IMG/VR virus record: IMGVR_UViG_3300045284_000385
Span: 1-64,000 of that record
DNA from: a virus
DNA: 64,000 nucleotides
Reading direction: 5' to 3' (one strand)
In this document: piece after piece, positions 4,118-7,856 of the stretch
Position numbering within the stretch: the first letter of the stretch is position 1
Layout of the letters: each line of letters starts with the position of its first letter
Notes under the pieces: generated by a model
Databases searched by the model: none
The model's input: the letters and a program-made list of their open reading frames with translations, nothing else
What the model was told of the DNA's origin: nothing
Position numbers and translations under genes: made by a program

Positions 4118-4402
4118 TCAGTCATCAATATCAGGTGCTGCCTTAAGCTCCCAATGCGTTACCGGAATCGGCAATGACGCGAGCGCAACTTTCCTTGCGG
4201 TAGCCTCAGTGGTTGGGGTAAGACAATACAAGCTGCTCGGATGGTAGAACTGGGTCATCACAGTCTTCTTGCCATTTGGAATATCGACTCTGAGTAGCCC
4301 AGCTCCGGCAATGGTTTCCTCTTTGACGTATCCAGCAATTCTCCGATGTCCCATCAATTCCACAATTGCCCATCCCTCAAATCCGTTATGTTCTTCGCTC
4401 AT
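4118..4402 (-). CDS. conserved small phage protein following the resolvase
   Basis: The start at 4402 shares a base with the resolvase stop (TAATG), giving 94 residues. The segment GFEGWAIVELMGHRRIAGYV and a later TQFYHPSSLYCLTPTTE are the kind of conserved core seen in a small family found beside phage recombination genes. No catalytic motif is visible and the function is unknown. A longer frame reaching upstream only overprints the resolvase gene. Confidence 0.7.
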   Translation of the reverse strand: MSEEHNGFEGWAIVELMGHRRIAGYVKEETIAGAGLLRVDIPNGKKTVMTQFYHPSSLYCLTPTTEATARKVALASLPIPVTHWELKAAPDIDD

Positions 4403-4881
4403 TAGAAAACCTCCGCTACTTCCTTCCTGCGCTCCATCTTGATCGGGGGTGGTAAGAGGCCAAGGTACTTTTCCCGTGCATATTTTGCGATGAGGATCGC
4501 GTCCGCTGTGCAATGGGTGATCTTGAATCCAGGGAACAACTGTTGAGCTTTGGCCTTCGAGATGTTCTTGTCGCCGTGGGTCAAACAATTCATATAGCGC
4601 TGCCACGTCTGTGGTGGACAATCCTCGAAGGGGATGCCAATGGATACGAGAATCCCTCTCAGGAGTCCATAGTGCATTCCGAACTTGAAACTTGAGGAGA
4701 CCCCCTGCTCAGGGAAAGAATGCACGCGCTCAATGATAGCCAGGGCCAGCGGCGGGCACGCTGAGAAAATGTCCGAAGTGTCCTTTTCGGTTTCCGGCAT
4801 CTTCTGAATAGACTCCAATGTCCCGTCGTCATTCATGAAAGCTACTCCACCAGATAGACCTGGATCTATGCCTGCGAACAT
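4402..4881 (-). CDS. RuvC-like Holliday junction resolvase
   Basis: A 159-residue RNase H-fold nuclease of the RuvC type. Visible acidic residues are D in FAGIDPGLSGGVAF (residues 2-15), E in IIERVHSF and the C-terminal D in THCTADAILIAKY. Such phage enzymes resolve branched DNA before packaging. The start overlaps the end of the helicase-methyltransferase gene by 16 bp, so the two are co-translated. Confidence 0.85.
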   Translation of the reverse strand: MFAGIDPGLSGGVAFMNDDGTLESIQKMPETEKDTSDIFSACPPLALAIIERVHSFPEQGVSSSFKFGMHYGLLRGILVSIGIPFEDCPPQTWQRYMNCLTHGDKNISKAKAQQLFPGFKITHCTADAILIAKYAREKYLGLLPPPIKMERRKEVAEVF

Positions 4882-7856
4882 AAAGTCTCCTCCGAATCTG
4901 GTGCCTCTGAGATCTCTACCAAATCAAAAAGCGTAGGCGTTTCTTTCTTGCGCGAGGCCGCTTCGCAATACATGACGCCGTCTTTGAAGTAGTTCGGGTT
5001 CAGCTCAATTCCAATTCCTCTGCGTCCCATCTGGATAGCGCAATAGGGCACCGTCATCAATCCGCCGAACGGATCAAGCACGGTATCTCCGGGCTGCGTG
5101 AACTGCCTGATCATCCGGTTTGCGATATCGAATTGCATCGGGCAGAGATGAAACTCTTTCCCCTTCTGCGCCTGGCTCATGTTCAGCGTGCGCATTCGGG
5201 CGATGTCTGTCCAGACATCTGGGTGCCAGGATGGCGGTTGTAAGAGCATGAAGGTGACTGGCAGCCTCTTGGCCTCTTCGAGAGCCTCACCTAGCTTGAC
5301 GTGATATTCATAGTCGTACACTTCCTCGAGTCCGTATTTCCTGAATAGCTTGAAGATGGCGTTGTGCTCGAGGGTCATCAACTCTTCTGGAAGAATCGGA
5401 CGGTTTCCGTTAGACCGAGTGAACCCGTGGGCGTCGATCTGCCAGCGGGCTTTCGAATACTCATCCTTGCTCTTAACGACCGGCTCATCGGCGTAGCCGT
5501 TGCTGCGATCGCTTGGAGGCTTCCTGAATAGGAGCATGTACTCAGGCATCCCGGCGCCCATGCGTGAGCCGTCCTTGCATTGCTCCGTCCAGCCGAGTCG
5601 ATAGGTCTGATTGTTCTCTCTGACAACATCAGTGACGATGGTCTTTCTGGCCAGGAAAGCAAATCCGTGTTTGATGAAGTGGCGGACGGTGTCATCACTG
5701 AATGGGCTCACGGTCTGGAATCCTAAGCCAGTCAGACCGCCTGGGACGATCCGGTCCTTAACGTGGATCGCTGCGACCCTGCCTGGCTTCAGGGTGCGAT
5801 ACAGCTCCGTGGTAACGAAATCCAGGTGCTCGAAAAAATGAGCGTTATCGTTTGTGTGTCCTAGGTCTCGATAGGATGGCGTGTATTCGTATTGGGTAGA
5901 AAATGGGATTGAGGTTAGAACGAAATCGATGCTGTTATTGTCCAGTGCCCGACACTCCTCTACAGCATCCGAATTGATCAGCCGATATCCTTCTCCATTC
6001 ACTTCCACTCTGTCGAAATCGATTGATCGAGTCATCTTCGAAGCAAGGCTGGCATGGCTCAGGCCGAATTCTCGAATGATCTTGCTCATCTCCTCAACCA
6101 GCTCTTTGTGTTGGTCCCACTTGCGCTGCAACGTCTGTCGCACTCCGCGCTCTGACTCTGAGTAAATGAGATCTATCCGCACCGGATGATTCTGCAGAAA
6201 TCTATATATGCGGTGAATTGCTTGAATTGTGTCGGAGAACTTGAAAGTTATTCCTATGAAACACATTTTATGGCACTGCTGCAGGTTTATCCCCGCACCA
6301 TACATTACCGGCTTGGTGAGAAAAACCTTTGTCTTCTTGGAGCGCCAATCATCTAAGAGGAGCTCTCGCTCTTCGATAGTTTGTGATCCATAAAGAGATG
6401 AGAAAGAAATCCCTGCTCTGGAAAGAGCTCTTTCGATTGATGTTTGCTCTTCATTGAGGTCACACCAAACCACGATTTGGTCAGATAGGCCGCCGCTTTC
6501 AGCAACAGAGATGGATTGTCGTCCAGCATCCCGATTGCCGCATTGCACAGTCTGCAGAGTAGTCCTCTCACTTCTCCCGTCGTATGATCGTGATCTATCG
6601 CAGGCTTCGTCAGTAACCTCTGACAGATCGCACATTCCCAGTCCTGTATCATCAGGAGCCAATTGAACGCGTCTGGTGTTATTCCGTAAATACGATTTCT
6701 CTCCCTTTCTCTCTGCTTCTTCATTAGAACTGCTCTGTTCGCTTCCAAGTAAGCAGTCATGTAAGCCCGCCGGCCCGTTGAATTCCTGAAGGCCTCTGCT
6801 TTTTTCCTGTGCTGGTGGTAATACTGAAGTTGATACGTCCTCTGGTAGTCTTTGTATGCTTTCGTTTGGCGTCGGCGCGTCATTCGTTCCGATTCCTTCT
6901 CGAGTTTGTTCATGTATAAGCTCCATTAGTTTGCCAATTCGAGCGGGCAGACTGTCGCGCTTCTCCCTGGCTGCGTTCGATACTCCGATGGCTGAATCTT
7001 GGAACAGCCTGAGTTGGCCGTCCCTCTCTGAGCCAGCGTTGCTATGTGTGCTTGGGACCTCGTGCCAGCGAACATCGATTGGCGGAAGGTCGTATCCAGT
7101 ATCGTCGAAGCCGATGTCAGAAGGGCGCTGCAGGAATATCGCCCAGGAAGCTACCCACAACCAGAACTCTCTGGTTTTGTGCCCGTGCAGAGTGAGGCGA
7201 TCAGCGTGAACTGAGTCACGTTTGAAGAAGCGGGTCTTAGCCTGCCCAACATCCATGATGCCGAGGAAGGCGGCGTAGCTCAGCAATTCAATAAACTCGT
7301 TGGGTGAAGGGGTCGCCGTCGCAACGAATCGATATTTGACAGTTTCAAAGATCCGCATAAACTCCCGGAATGTTTTTGTTCCTCCGAAGCTCCGGAGCAC
7401 GCTGGCCTCATCAAGTGAAGCGACCGTGAAAGCTGTGGCGTCCAGCTTCCCGTCGCGGACACTCTCATAGTTGGTAACGAAAATACCGATGGTCTTTTGC
7501 TCTTCCCATTCAAGCGATAGCTGATCCGCTTCTTCAGTTCGGCGAATGAATCGGATCGGAATCCCAAGCATCTCAGCATCTCTCTTGAATTCCTGACGTA
7601 CTCCGAGAGGGGCAACAATCAAGCCTCTTCCGCCAGACCGCTCAAGGACCAACCGAAGCGTTTCAAGCTGAATCATGGTCTTCCCAAGTCCGAAGGCTGC
7701 GAAGCAAGCGCGCCTTCCTCCAGTGGCCATCCATTCGACGATGACGCGCTGATGAGGCTTCAGGATAGGGTTGACCGCTCCGACGGCAACGCCACTCTGC
7801 TGCGCCACGACCACTTTCATTTCTAGGAATTTCTGATAGCGCTCTCGTTCGTTCAT
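4866..7856 (-). CDS. SNF2/DEAD-type helicase fused to a DNA methyltransferase
   Basis: A 996-residue fusion. The helicase has FGLGKT at 55-60 (Walker A), DEAS at 149-152 and TATPSPN at 180-186; its second RecA lobe resumes near residue 457 and includes QAIHRIYRF. From about residue 620 a methyltransferase follows, with a motif IV-like TSIPF and then, near 927, LDPFGG with RGIGIELN (motif I). This IV-before-I order is typical of beta-class N4/N6 amino-methyltransferases. The consensus at motif IV is S/D-PP-F/Y; isoleucine replaces the first proline. Residues ~318-456 are hydrophilic and unlike helicase sequence, and correspond to an HNH gene read in another frame. Possible roles are self-methylation against restriction, or remodelling of replicating DNA. 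Confidence 0.85.
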   Translation of the reverse strand: MNERERYQKFLEMKVVVAQQSGVAVGAVNPILKPHQRVIVEWMATGGRRACFAAFGLGKTMIQLETLRLVLERSGGRGLIVAPLGVRQEFKRDAEMLGIPIRFIRRTEEADQLSLEWEEQKTIGIFVTNYESVRDGKLDATAFTVASLDEASVLRSFGGTKTFREFMRIFETVKYRFVATATPSPNEFIELLSYAAFLGIMDVGQAKTRFFKRDSVHADRLTLHGHKTREFWLWVASWAIFLQRPSDIGFDDTGYDLPPIDVRWHEVPSTHSNAGSERDGQLRLFQDSAIGVSNAAREKRDSLPARIGKLMELIHEQTREGIGTNDAPTPNESIQRLPEDVSTSVLPPAQEKSRGLQEFNGPAGLHDCLLGSEQSSSNEEAERKGEKSYLRNNTRRVQLAPDDTGLGMCDLSEVTDEACDRSRSYDGRSERTTLQTVQCGNRDAGRQSISVAESGGLSDQIVVWCDLNEEQTSIERALSRAGISFSSLYGSQTIEERELLLDDWRSKKTKVFLTKPVMYGAGINLQQCHKMCFIGITFKFSDTIQAIHRIYRFLQNHPVRIDLIYSESERGVRQTLQRKWDQHKELVEEMSKIIREFGLSHASLASKMTRSIDFDRVEVNGEGYRLINSDAVEECRALDNNSIDFVLTSIPFSTQYEYTPSYRDLGHTNDNAHFFEHLDFVTTELYRTLKPGRVAAIHVKDRIVPGGLTGLGFQTVSPFSDDTVRHFIKHGFAFLARKTIVTDVVRENNQTYRLGWTEQCKDGSRMGAGMPEYMLLFRKPPSDRSNGYADEPVVKSKDEYSKARWQIDAHGFTRSNGNRPILPEELMTLEHNAIFKLFRKYGLEEVYDYEYHVKLGEALEEAKRLPVTFMLLQPPSWHPDVWTDIARMRTLNMSQAQKGKEFHLCPMQFDIANRMIRQFTQPGDTVLDPFGGLMTVPYCAIQMGRRGIGIELNPNYFKDGVMYCEAASRKKETPTLFDLVEISEAPDSEETLCSQA
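6353..6883 (-). CDS. endonuclease VII-type HNH nuclease nested out of frame in the helicase gene
   Basis: In the +1 frame relative to the helicase, ATG at 6883 (preceded by AGAAGGAA) opens 176 codons. The central part is a clear recombination endonuclease VII/HNH core: RIYGITPDAFNWLL, then CAIC, then IDHDHTTGEVRGLLCRLCN with the DHDH catalytic site and the second zinc-binding Cys pair, then IGMLDDNPSLLLKAAAYL. The basic N-terminus (MTRRRQTKAYKDYQRTYQ) is typical of the family. The last ~40 residues overprint conserved helicase sequence and are probably non-native. The core is intact, so this is a real gene or a recent insertion. Confidence 0.75.
   Translation of the reverse strand: MTRRRQTKAYKDYQRTYQLQYYHQHRKKAEAFRNSTGRRAYMTAYLEANRAVLMKKQRERERNRIYGITPDAFNWLLMIQDWECAICQRLLTKPAIDHDHTTGEVRGLLCRLCNAAIGMLDDNPSLLLKAAAYLTKSWFGVTSMKSKHQSKELFPEQGFLSHLFMDHKLSKSESSS

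Follow-up and report, generated by a model that had tools for sequence, protein, structure and literature searches.

A probable homing endonuclease of the EndoVII type nested out of frame in the inter-lobe linker of phage helicase-methyltransferase genes

We analysed a stretch of viral DNA of 64,000 nucleotides (the window; positions 1 to 64,000 of IMG/VR record IMGVR_UViG_3300045284_000385), which covers the greater part of a phage contig of 65.9 kb. It carries a helicase-methyltransferase gene in which a second open reading frame (ORF), for an HNH endonuclease of the endonuclease VII (EndoVII) type, is nested out of frame. The features of the locus are:

4866-7856, minus strand: outer gene, a fusion of an SNF2-type helicase (two RecA lobes) and an N6/N4 DNA methyltransferase, 996 codons
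6486-6896, minus strand: inserted segment as read in the outer frame, residues ~321-457 (~137 extra codons), a predicted disordered linker between the RecA lobes
6353-6913, minus strand: nested EndoVII-type HNH endonuclease ORF, 186 amino acids, +1 relative to the outer frame
6479-6706, minus strand: catalytic and zinc core of the nuclease (PF02945 match, inner residues 70-145)
6353-6478, minus strand: C-terminal stretch of the nuclease frame, ~40 codons, over conserved helicase lobe 2 (WCDLNEEQ...)
6914-6924, minus strand: Shine-Dalgarno-like GGAG, 7 nucleotides ahead of the inner ATG (atGGAGcttatacATG), derived from helicase Met-Glu codons (ATGGAG)

The outer protein matches PF00176 (residues 35-206), PF00271 (459-553) and PF01555 (643-958) in Pfam and phrog_16 in PHROG (E=1.6e-121), and homologues of the helicase-methyltransferase are present in 317 phage records. 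When 12 phage helicase homologues were aligned, the end of a helix ('KLMEI') was found to join the lobe-2 strand ('QIIWCDLN') directly; the window protein runs '...KLMELIHEQTREG' up to the insert and 'SDQIVVWCDLN...' after it, and the intervening residues 321-457 are missing in 12/12 homologues. AlphaFold gave these residues a predicted local distance difference test score (pLDDT) of ~26, with 80-95 on either side, where the two lobes are confidently modelled, and they are predicted to form a disordered linker. An earlier, sequence-only reading had placed an insertion exactly between the two RecA lobes and predicted that homologues would lack it; alignment and model bear this out for homologues without the nuclease. 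None of 421 loci with both lobes (described below) had the same outer linker but lacked the HNH frame.

The inner protein was identified as an EndoVII by profile search, as the sequence-only reading had anticipated, with matches to PF02945 (Endonuclease_7, E=1.6e-20) and phrog_2914 (E=2.9e-29). That reading had the family and the +1 frame right and misjudged the extent, as the ORF starts at 6913 and ends at 6353, with the Pfam match at 6706-6479. The zinc and active-site residues that define the family are intact in the aligned sequences (C94-x2-C97, D107-H108-x-H110, C120-x2-C123 and N124), that is, two pairs of C-x2-C ligands with a D-H ... N active site. Among solved structures, the inner profile matched T4 EndoVII (1en7) and Hpy99I (3fc3) with E of ~1e-11 to 1e-15, and the same two proteins were the top Foldseek matches of the inner model, which is confident to about residue 145 (mean pLDDT 85). 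Past residue ~150 the score falls to 53-64, and it is the helicase frame that is conserved over the same bases; this C-terminal tail looks like accidental read-through into lobe 2. The host gene may also supply both ends of the nuclease gene. The CTG-AAC of the lobe-2 motif WCDLN provides the nuclease TGA in the +1 frame in several nested genes, and the GGAG upstream of the inner start, where initiation would be internal to the helicase message, is clear in the window and in nine of the related loci presented below (spacing ~7 nucleotides in L188, L267, L268, L269, L270 and L330, and 9-10 in L187, L271 and L432). Weaker, purine-rich near variants occur in L190, L360 and L431.

The outer frame of 996 codons does stay open across the insert, as had been noted from the sequence, and we assessed how surprising this is by keeping the nuclease protein, permuting its own synonymous codons and counting outer-frame stops, with a variant that used the codon usage of the host gene. 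For the window, shuffles averaged 6.1 outer stops and were stop-free with P ~0.0003, and the third frame contains 13 stops over the same stretch. Across the 13 loci of the +1 type, 51.5 outer stops were expected and 0 were seen, and the product of the stop-free probabilities was 1e-29 with own codons permuted and 1e-26 with host codon usage. By comparison, 0/91 free-standing EndoVII genes are open in the corresponding frame. Because the insertion screen set no open-frame requirement, the stop-free outer frames are not only a product of ascertainment, yet L360 was first noticed through its openness. These results make it extremely improbable that the overlap is due to chance, with the ORF decayed or spurious, the gene recombined and one of the two frames functionless. 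GC-rich DNA often has long spurious ORFs, and several loci taken singly have a stop-free probability of only 0.03-0.13; however, this explanation has to contend with the strength of the PF02945 match, the 13/13 open outer frames (combined P ~1e-26 or less), a third frame that always contains stops, and the recurrence of one site across unrelated hosts. Selection on the outer amino-acid sequence itself was considered and dropped, as pairwise outer identity among nested genes is mostly within or slightly above the synonymous-shuffle expectation, and only stop avoidance is claimed. As outer identity is near what shuffling predicts, the nuclease frame probably carries most of the sequence constraint, and the simplest reading is that the helicase frame mainly needs to avoid stops.

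Homing genes must spare the gene that they invade, and the textbook solutions are self-splicing introns and inteins. We weighed whether the helicase product lacks the segment (through an unrecognised intron, an abnormal intein or translational bypass), which would make the open outer frame incidental. Hosts of homing nucleases usually do restore the gene product, and other parts of this gene contain true inteins (Radiance L014 and L322). Against this, Rfam identified no group I or II intron in the window, which gave only sub-threshold noise, or in 14 nested loci, so that no catalytic intron RNA was found around the ORF of the kind that marks intron-encoded HNH genes. In the outer frame, a Pfam scan of the insert gave no match, including none to the Hint splicing domain by which an intein would be recognised, and the segment is modelled as disordered; intron and intein were both rejected. 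In addition, the nuclease ORF fills the insert, and RNA splicing or bypass would leave the strong stop avoidance without purpose. Removal is accordingly improbable in our estimate, if less so than a chance overlap.

Related cases were sought by searching phages with the inner protein, followed by alignment-based scans of viral and bacterial contigs. In this way an EndoVII ORF was found at the same inter-lobe site of 14 more helicase genes, in the +1 frame in 12 of them and in +2 in the two from Gordonia phages. The +1 cases beside the window are L187, L188 (= L189), L190, L267-L271, L330, L360, L431 and L432, all of them helicase-methylases, with hosts that include Acidovorax (L267), Variovorax (L268 and L330), Dactylosporangium (L269), Gellertiella (L270) and Paenibacillus (L271). 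The Gordonia phages Malisha and Squiddly have a 558-bp inter-lobe insert in a gene annotated as 'DNA helicase', with EndoVII in frame +2 and the helicase frame open; here the probability of a stop-free frame (P0) is ~0.5, and openness alone is uninformative. GenBank lists only the helicase for Malisha gp71 (L018) and Squiddly gp64 (L019), in which the complete nested EndoVII ORF (176 amino acids) is unannotated. Among the 421 fetched loci with both lobes, a redundant set, 398 have no insert at the site. Every EndoVII insert is a multiple of three in length and open in the host frame (15/15), no closed-frame EndoVII insert at this site was present among the 421, and one locus among them has a 1-nucleotide frameshift. 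All nested helicase-methylases begin lobe 2 with WC(D/H)LN (10/10 scored automatically, with L188, L270 and L271 read from the alignment by eye), compared with 69/184 scored empty genes (p=9e-5). The EndoVII sequences form ~5 clusters at the site, an approximate number given that the EndoVII tree is poorly resolved. From these comparisons, related elements occupy one site in at least 15 phages or prophages and have been acquired more than once. Scans of wider host genomes matched 1/401 family genomes (Variovorax G002 itself) and 1/105 (the Paenibacillus itself). One further candidate, L415, was rejected as a chance overlap with a downstream gene. Two other loci (L256:1596-2048 and the same region of L288) have an unrelated in-frame domain of ~150 amino acids just downstream of the site, following WHDLE of lobe 2, and their other frames contain no recognised nuclease.

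Several comparisons between nested and empty alleles point to mobility. Malisha and Squiddly differ by 1 nucleotide over ~840 nucleotides that include the insert and its flanks and by ~12% in the rest of the gene, and their relative Holliday (82-84% helicase identity) has an empty site. In two Variovorax prophages the gene is ~93% identical except for a ~1-kb tract centred on two different inserts; immediately 3' of the insert, these nested alleles are 33-40% identical to empty relatives, which are 88-95% identical to each other across the same tract. The nested/empty pairs L267/L244, L432/L301 and L270/L067 have identities of ~0.85-0.97 on both sides and 0.3-0.5 just 3' of the insert, and the pair of the window and L272 shows a shorter, one-sided 3' drop. 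In several lineages the divergent 3' tract spans ~60-120 codons, and nested and empty relatives otherwise match closely outside the insert, a pattern consistent with co-conversion. On the helicase tree the nested trait is scattered and needs at least 12 changes, 7 of them forced by well-supported branches. Together, the co-conversion-like tracts and the scattered distribution support mobility, as judged from sequence.

The same observations bear on whether the nuclease is instead a domesticated gene, a useful phage junction resolvase kept within the helicase gene for compactness and not selfish. T4 EndoVII is a structure-specific resolvase, the active-site core of the nested forms is intact, and phages favour compact overlapping genes. 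However, a useful resident gene fits poorly with an insert that is rare and scattered (398/421 loci without it), with ~5 EndoVII clusters at one site, and with the co-conversion-like tracts. Moreover, a RuvC-like Holliday junction resolvase gene lies directly downstream of the helicase-methylase (4402-4881, minus strand), so a resolving nuclease is already present. We consider domestication unlikely, though the least unlikely of the three alternatives.

We consider it likely that a mobile EndoVII-type HNH gene has inserted in the inter-lobe linker, where it is dual-coded with the helicase-methylase and spreads by homing. In the sequence itself, the insert is a multiple of three in length, encodes the nuclease in the +1 frame and leaves the host frame stop-free, so that the helicase protein can be translated across it with a linker predicted to be disordered. 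Under the model, internal initiation at the GGAG of the host Met-Glu codons would yield the nuclease from the helicase mRNA, and the nuclease would cut insert-free helicase alleles near the insertion site; repair off the insert-bearing allele would then copy the insert and co-convert an adjoining tract, mostly 3' of it. Selection on the host gene would purge insertions that place a stop in the helicase frame, and by this selection the element could live in a coding gene without an intron or intein. We infer homing, translation of both products and function of the linker-bearing helicase.

Several points count against this model. The case for cleavage and dual expression is drawn from sequence, and the homing site has yet to be defined, with no known DNA target that is identical from host to host. 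No empty-site sister of the window was found and no close relative of it, the nearest empty helicase being ~64% identical and too distant for a within-lineage ratio of nonsynonymous to synonymous substitution (dN/dS). Other pairs are too similar for such a comparison of the two frames, with one base of difference between the Malisha and Squiddly inserts and none between L188 and L189. The 3' tract could reflect ordinary modular recombination rather than double-strand break repair. Finally, junction resolvases are found among the relatives of EndoVII, and the nuclease could therefore lack site specificity.

Free-standing and intron-encoded HNH homing endonucleases (I-HmuI type) are selfish phage genes that spread by cutting and repair. 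These genes sit between genes or in self-splicing introns, whereas the nested EndoVII sits in the other frame of an uninterrupted coding gene. With T4 endonuclease VII (gp49) and Hpy99I the nested ORF shares a zinc-bound beta-beta-alpha-metal nuclease core; T4 EndoVII is free-standing and structure-specific and Hpy99I is a restriction enzyme, and the nested forms, unlike both, add a long helical N-terminal region in the model. The closest precedent is the ShiLan domain, a hidden HNH element in the gp65 methylase of mycobacteriophage ShiLan (Arsenault, Gosselin and Gogarten 2025, PMC11855218). As there, we find an HNH ORF in an alternate frame, a stop-free outer frame, neither intron nor intein, and a patchy distribution with traces of recombination, which for ShiLan was read as homing. 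ShiLan differs in its host gene family and insertion site and in its nuclease, an I-HmuI-like HNH with zinc fingers (195 amino acids); no Shine-Dalgarno sequence was found for it and leaderless initiation was proposed (PMC11855218), in contrast to the host-codon GGAG before the EndoVII start. The same article describes an out-of-frame nuclease in the phage methylase gene Pacc40 gp60, again with an open host frame, neither intron nor intein, and a patchy spread (PMC11855218). Pacc40 gp60 is a member of the helicase-methylase family analysed here (~95% to Spartacus gp70), but its nuclease is of the AP2/HNH type, in frame +2 and at another site (between PSDI and DTGYDLP). Further Pacc40-type AP2/HNH inserts in +2 lie between PSDL and GY(D/E/Q)LP in L219:3769-4347 and L474:3709-4194, with the outer frame open; at least 40% of shuffles would leave the frame open in this type, and openness is weak evidence there.

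As ShiLan and Pacc40 gp60 are published, the kind of element is already known (PMC11855218), and the proposal that this was a mode of homing needing neither intron nor intein holds as to the lack of a detectable intron or intein and the signs of mobility, while homing itself is inferred and the mode was described in 2025. The accessible text of PMC11855218 contains no statistical test of stop avoidance, nor does it mention nucleases of the EndoVII class, insertion between the lobes, a host range this wide, the host-supplied GGAG or the 3' tracts; a preprint cited there (10.1101/2025.01.02.630785) is outside this comparison. The nested EndoVII is a new, broader variant of the hidden out-of-frame HNH elements published for other nuclease types.

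The helicase-methylase gene is a hot spot that has taken up mobile inserts of several kinds. Inteins in the DEAD/DESS-box region of the helicase (L163:3071-4000 and L237:427-1539) carry a DUF559/Vsr-like nuclease (PF04480, E ~1e-11) in the +1 frame of the intein, with 0 outer stops against 5.3 and 9.4 expected (P0 of 0.0012 and 0.0002), and this combination of an intein with a nuclease in another frame may be new. Inteins or intein-like inserts occur in the same gene in L269:5785-6780, L014:3688-4677, L057 and L322:3208-4107 (in the methyltransferase region, or at Walker A in L322), and L269 combines a nested EndoVII with an insert at the methyltransferase intein site. In Flavobacterium phage snusmum6-2 (L016:3045-3536), a free-standing endonuclease gene lies between separate helicase and methyltransferase genes. 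More tentatively, the inter-lobe linker may be a pre-adapted landing pad, offering a host ribosome-binding site and a TGA derived from CTG-AAC, that unrelated EndoVII genes have colonised repeatedly (two frames, ~5 clusters); dual coding might in that case offer homing genes a third general route alongside introns and inteins, one that reaches even inteins with an out-of-frame nuclease (L163 and L237). This broader idea is possible, though we would not favour it at present.

The precedent in print deals mainly with a few actinophages (PMC11855218), and the EndoVII variant spans Pseudomonadota, Bacillota and Actinomycetota. Helicase annotations such as that of Malisha gp71 conceal unannotated nucleases, and gene callers that forbid overlaps overlook a class of mobile element. 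Recurrent dual coding in which selection is measurable only against host-frame stops provides a natural setting in which overprinting, and the way nested phage genes are born, can be tested cleanly.
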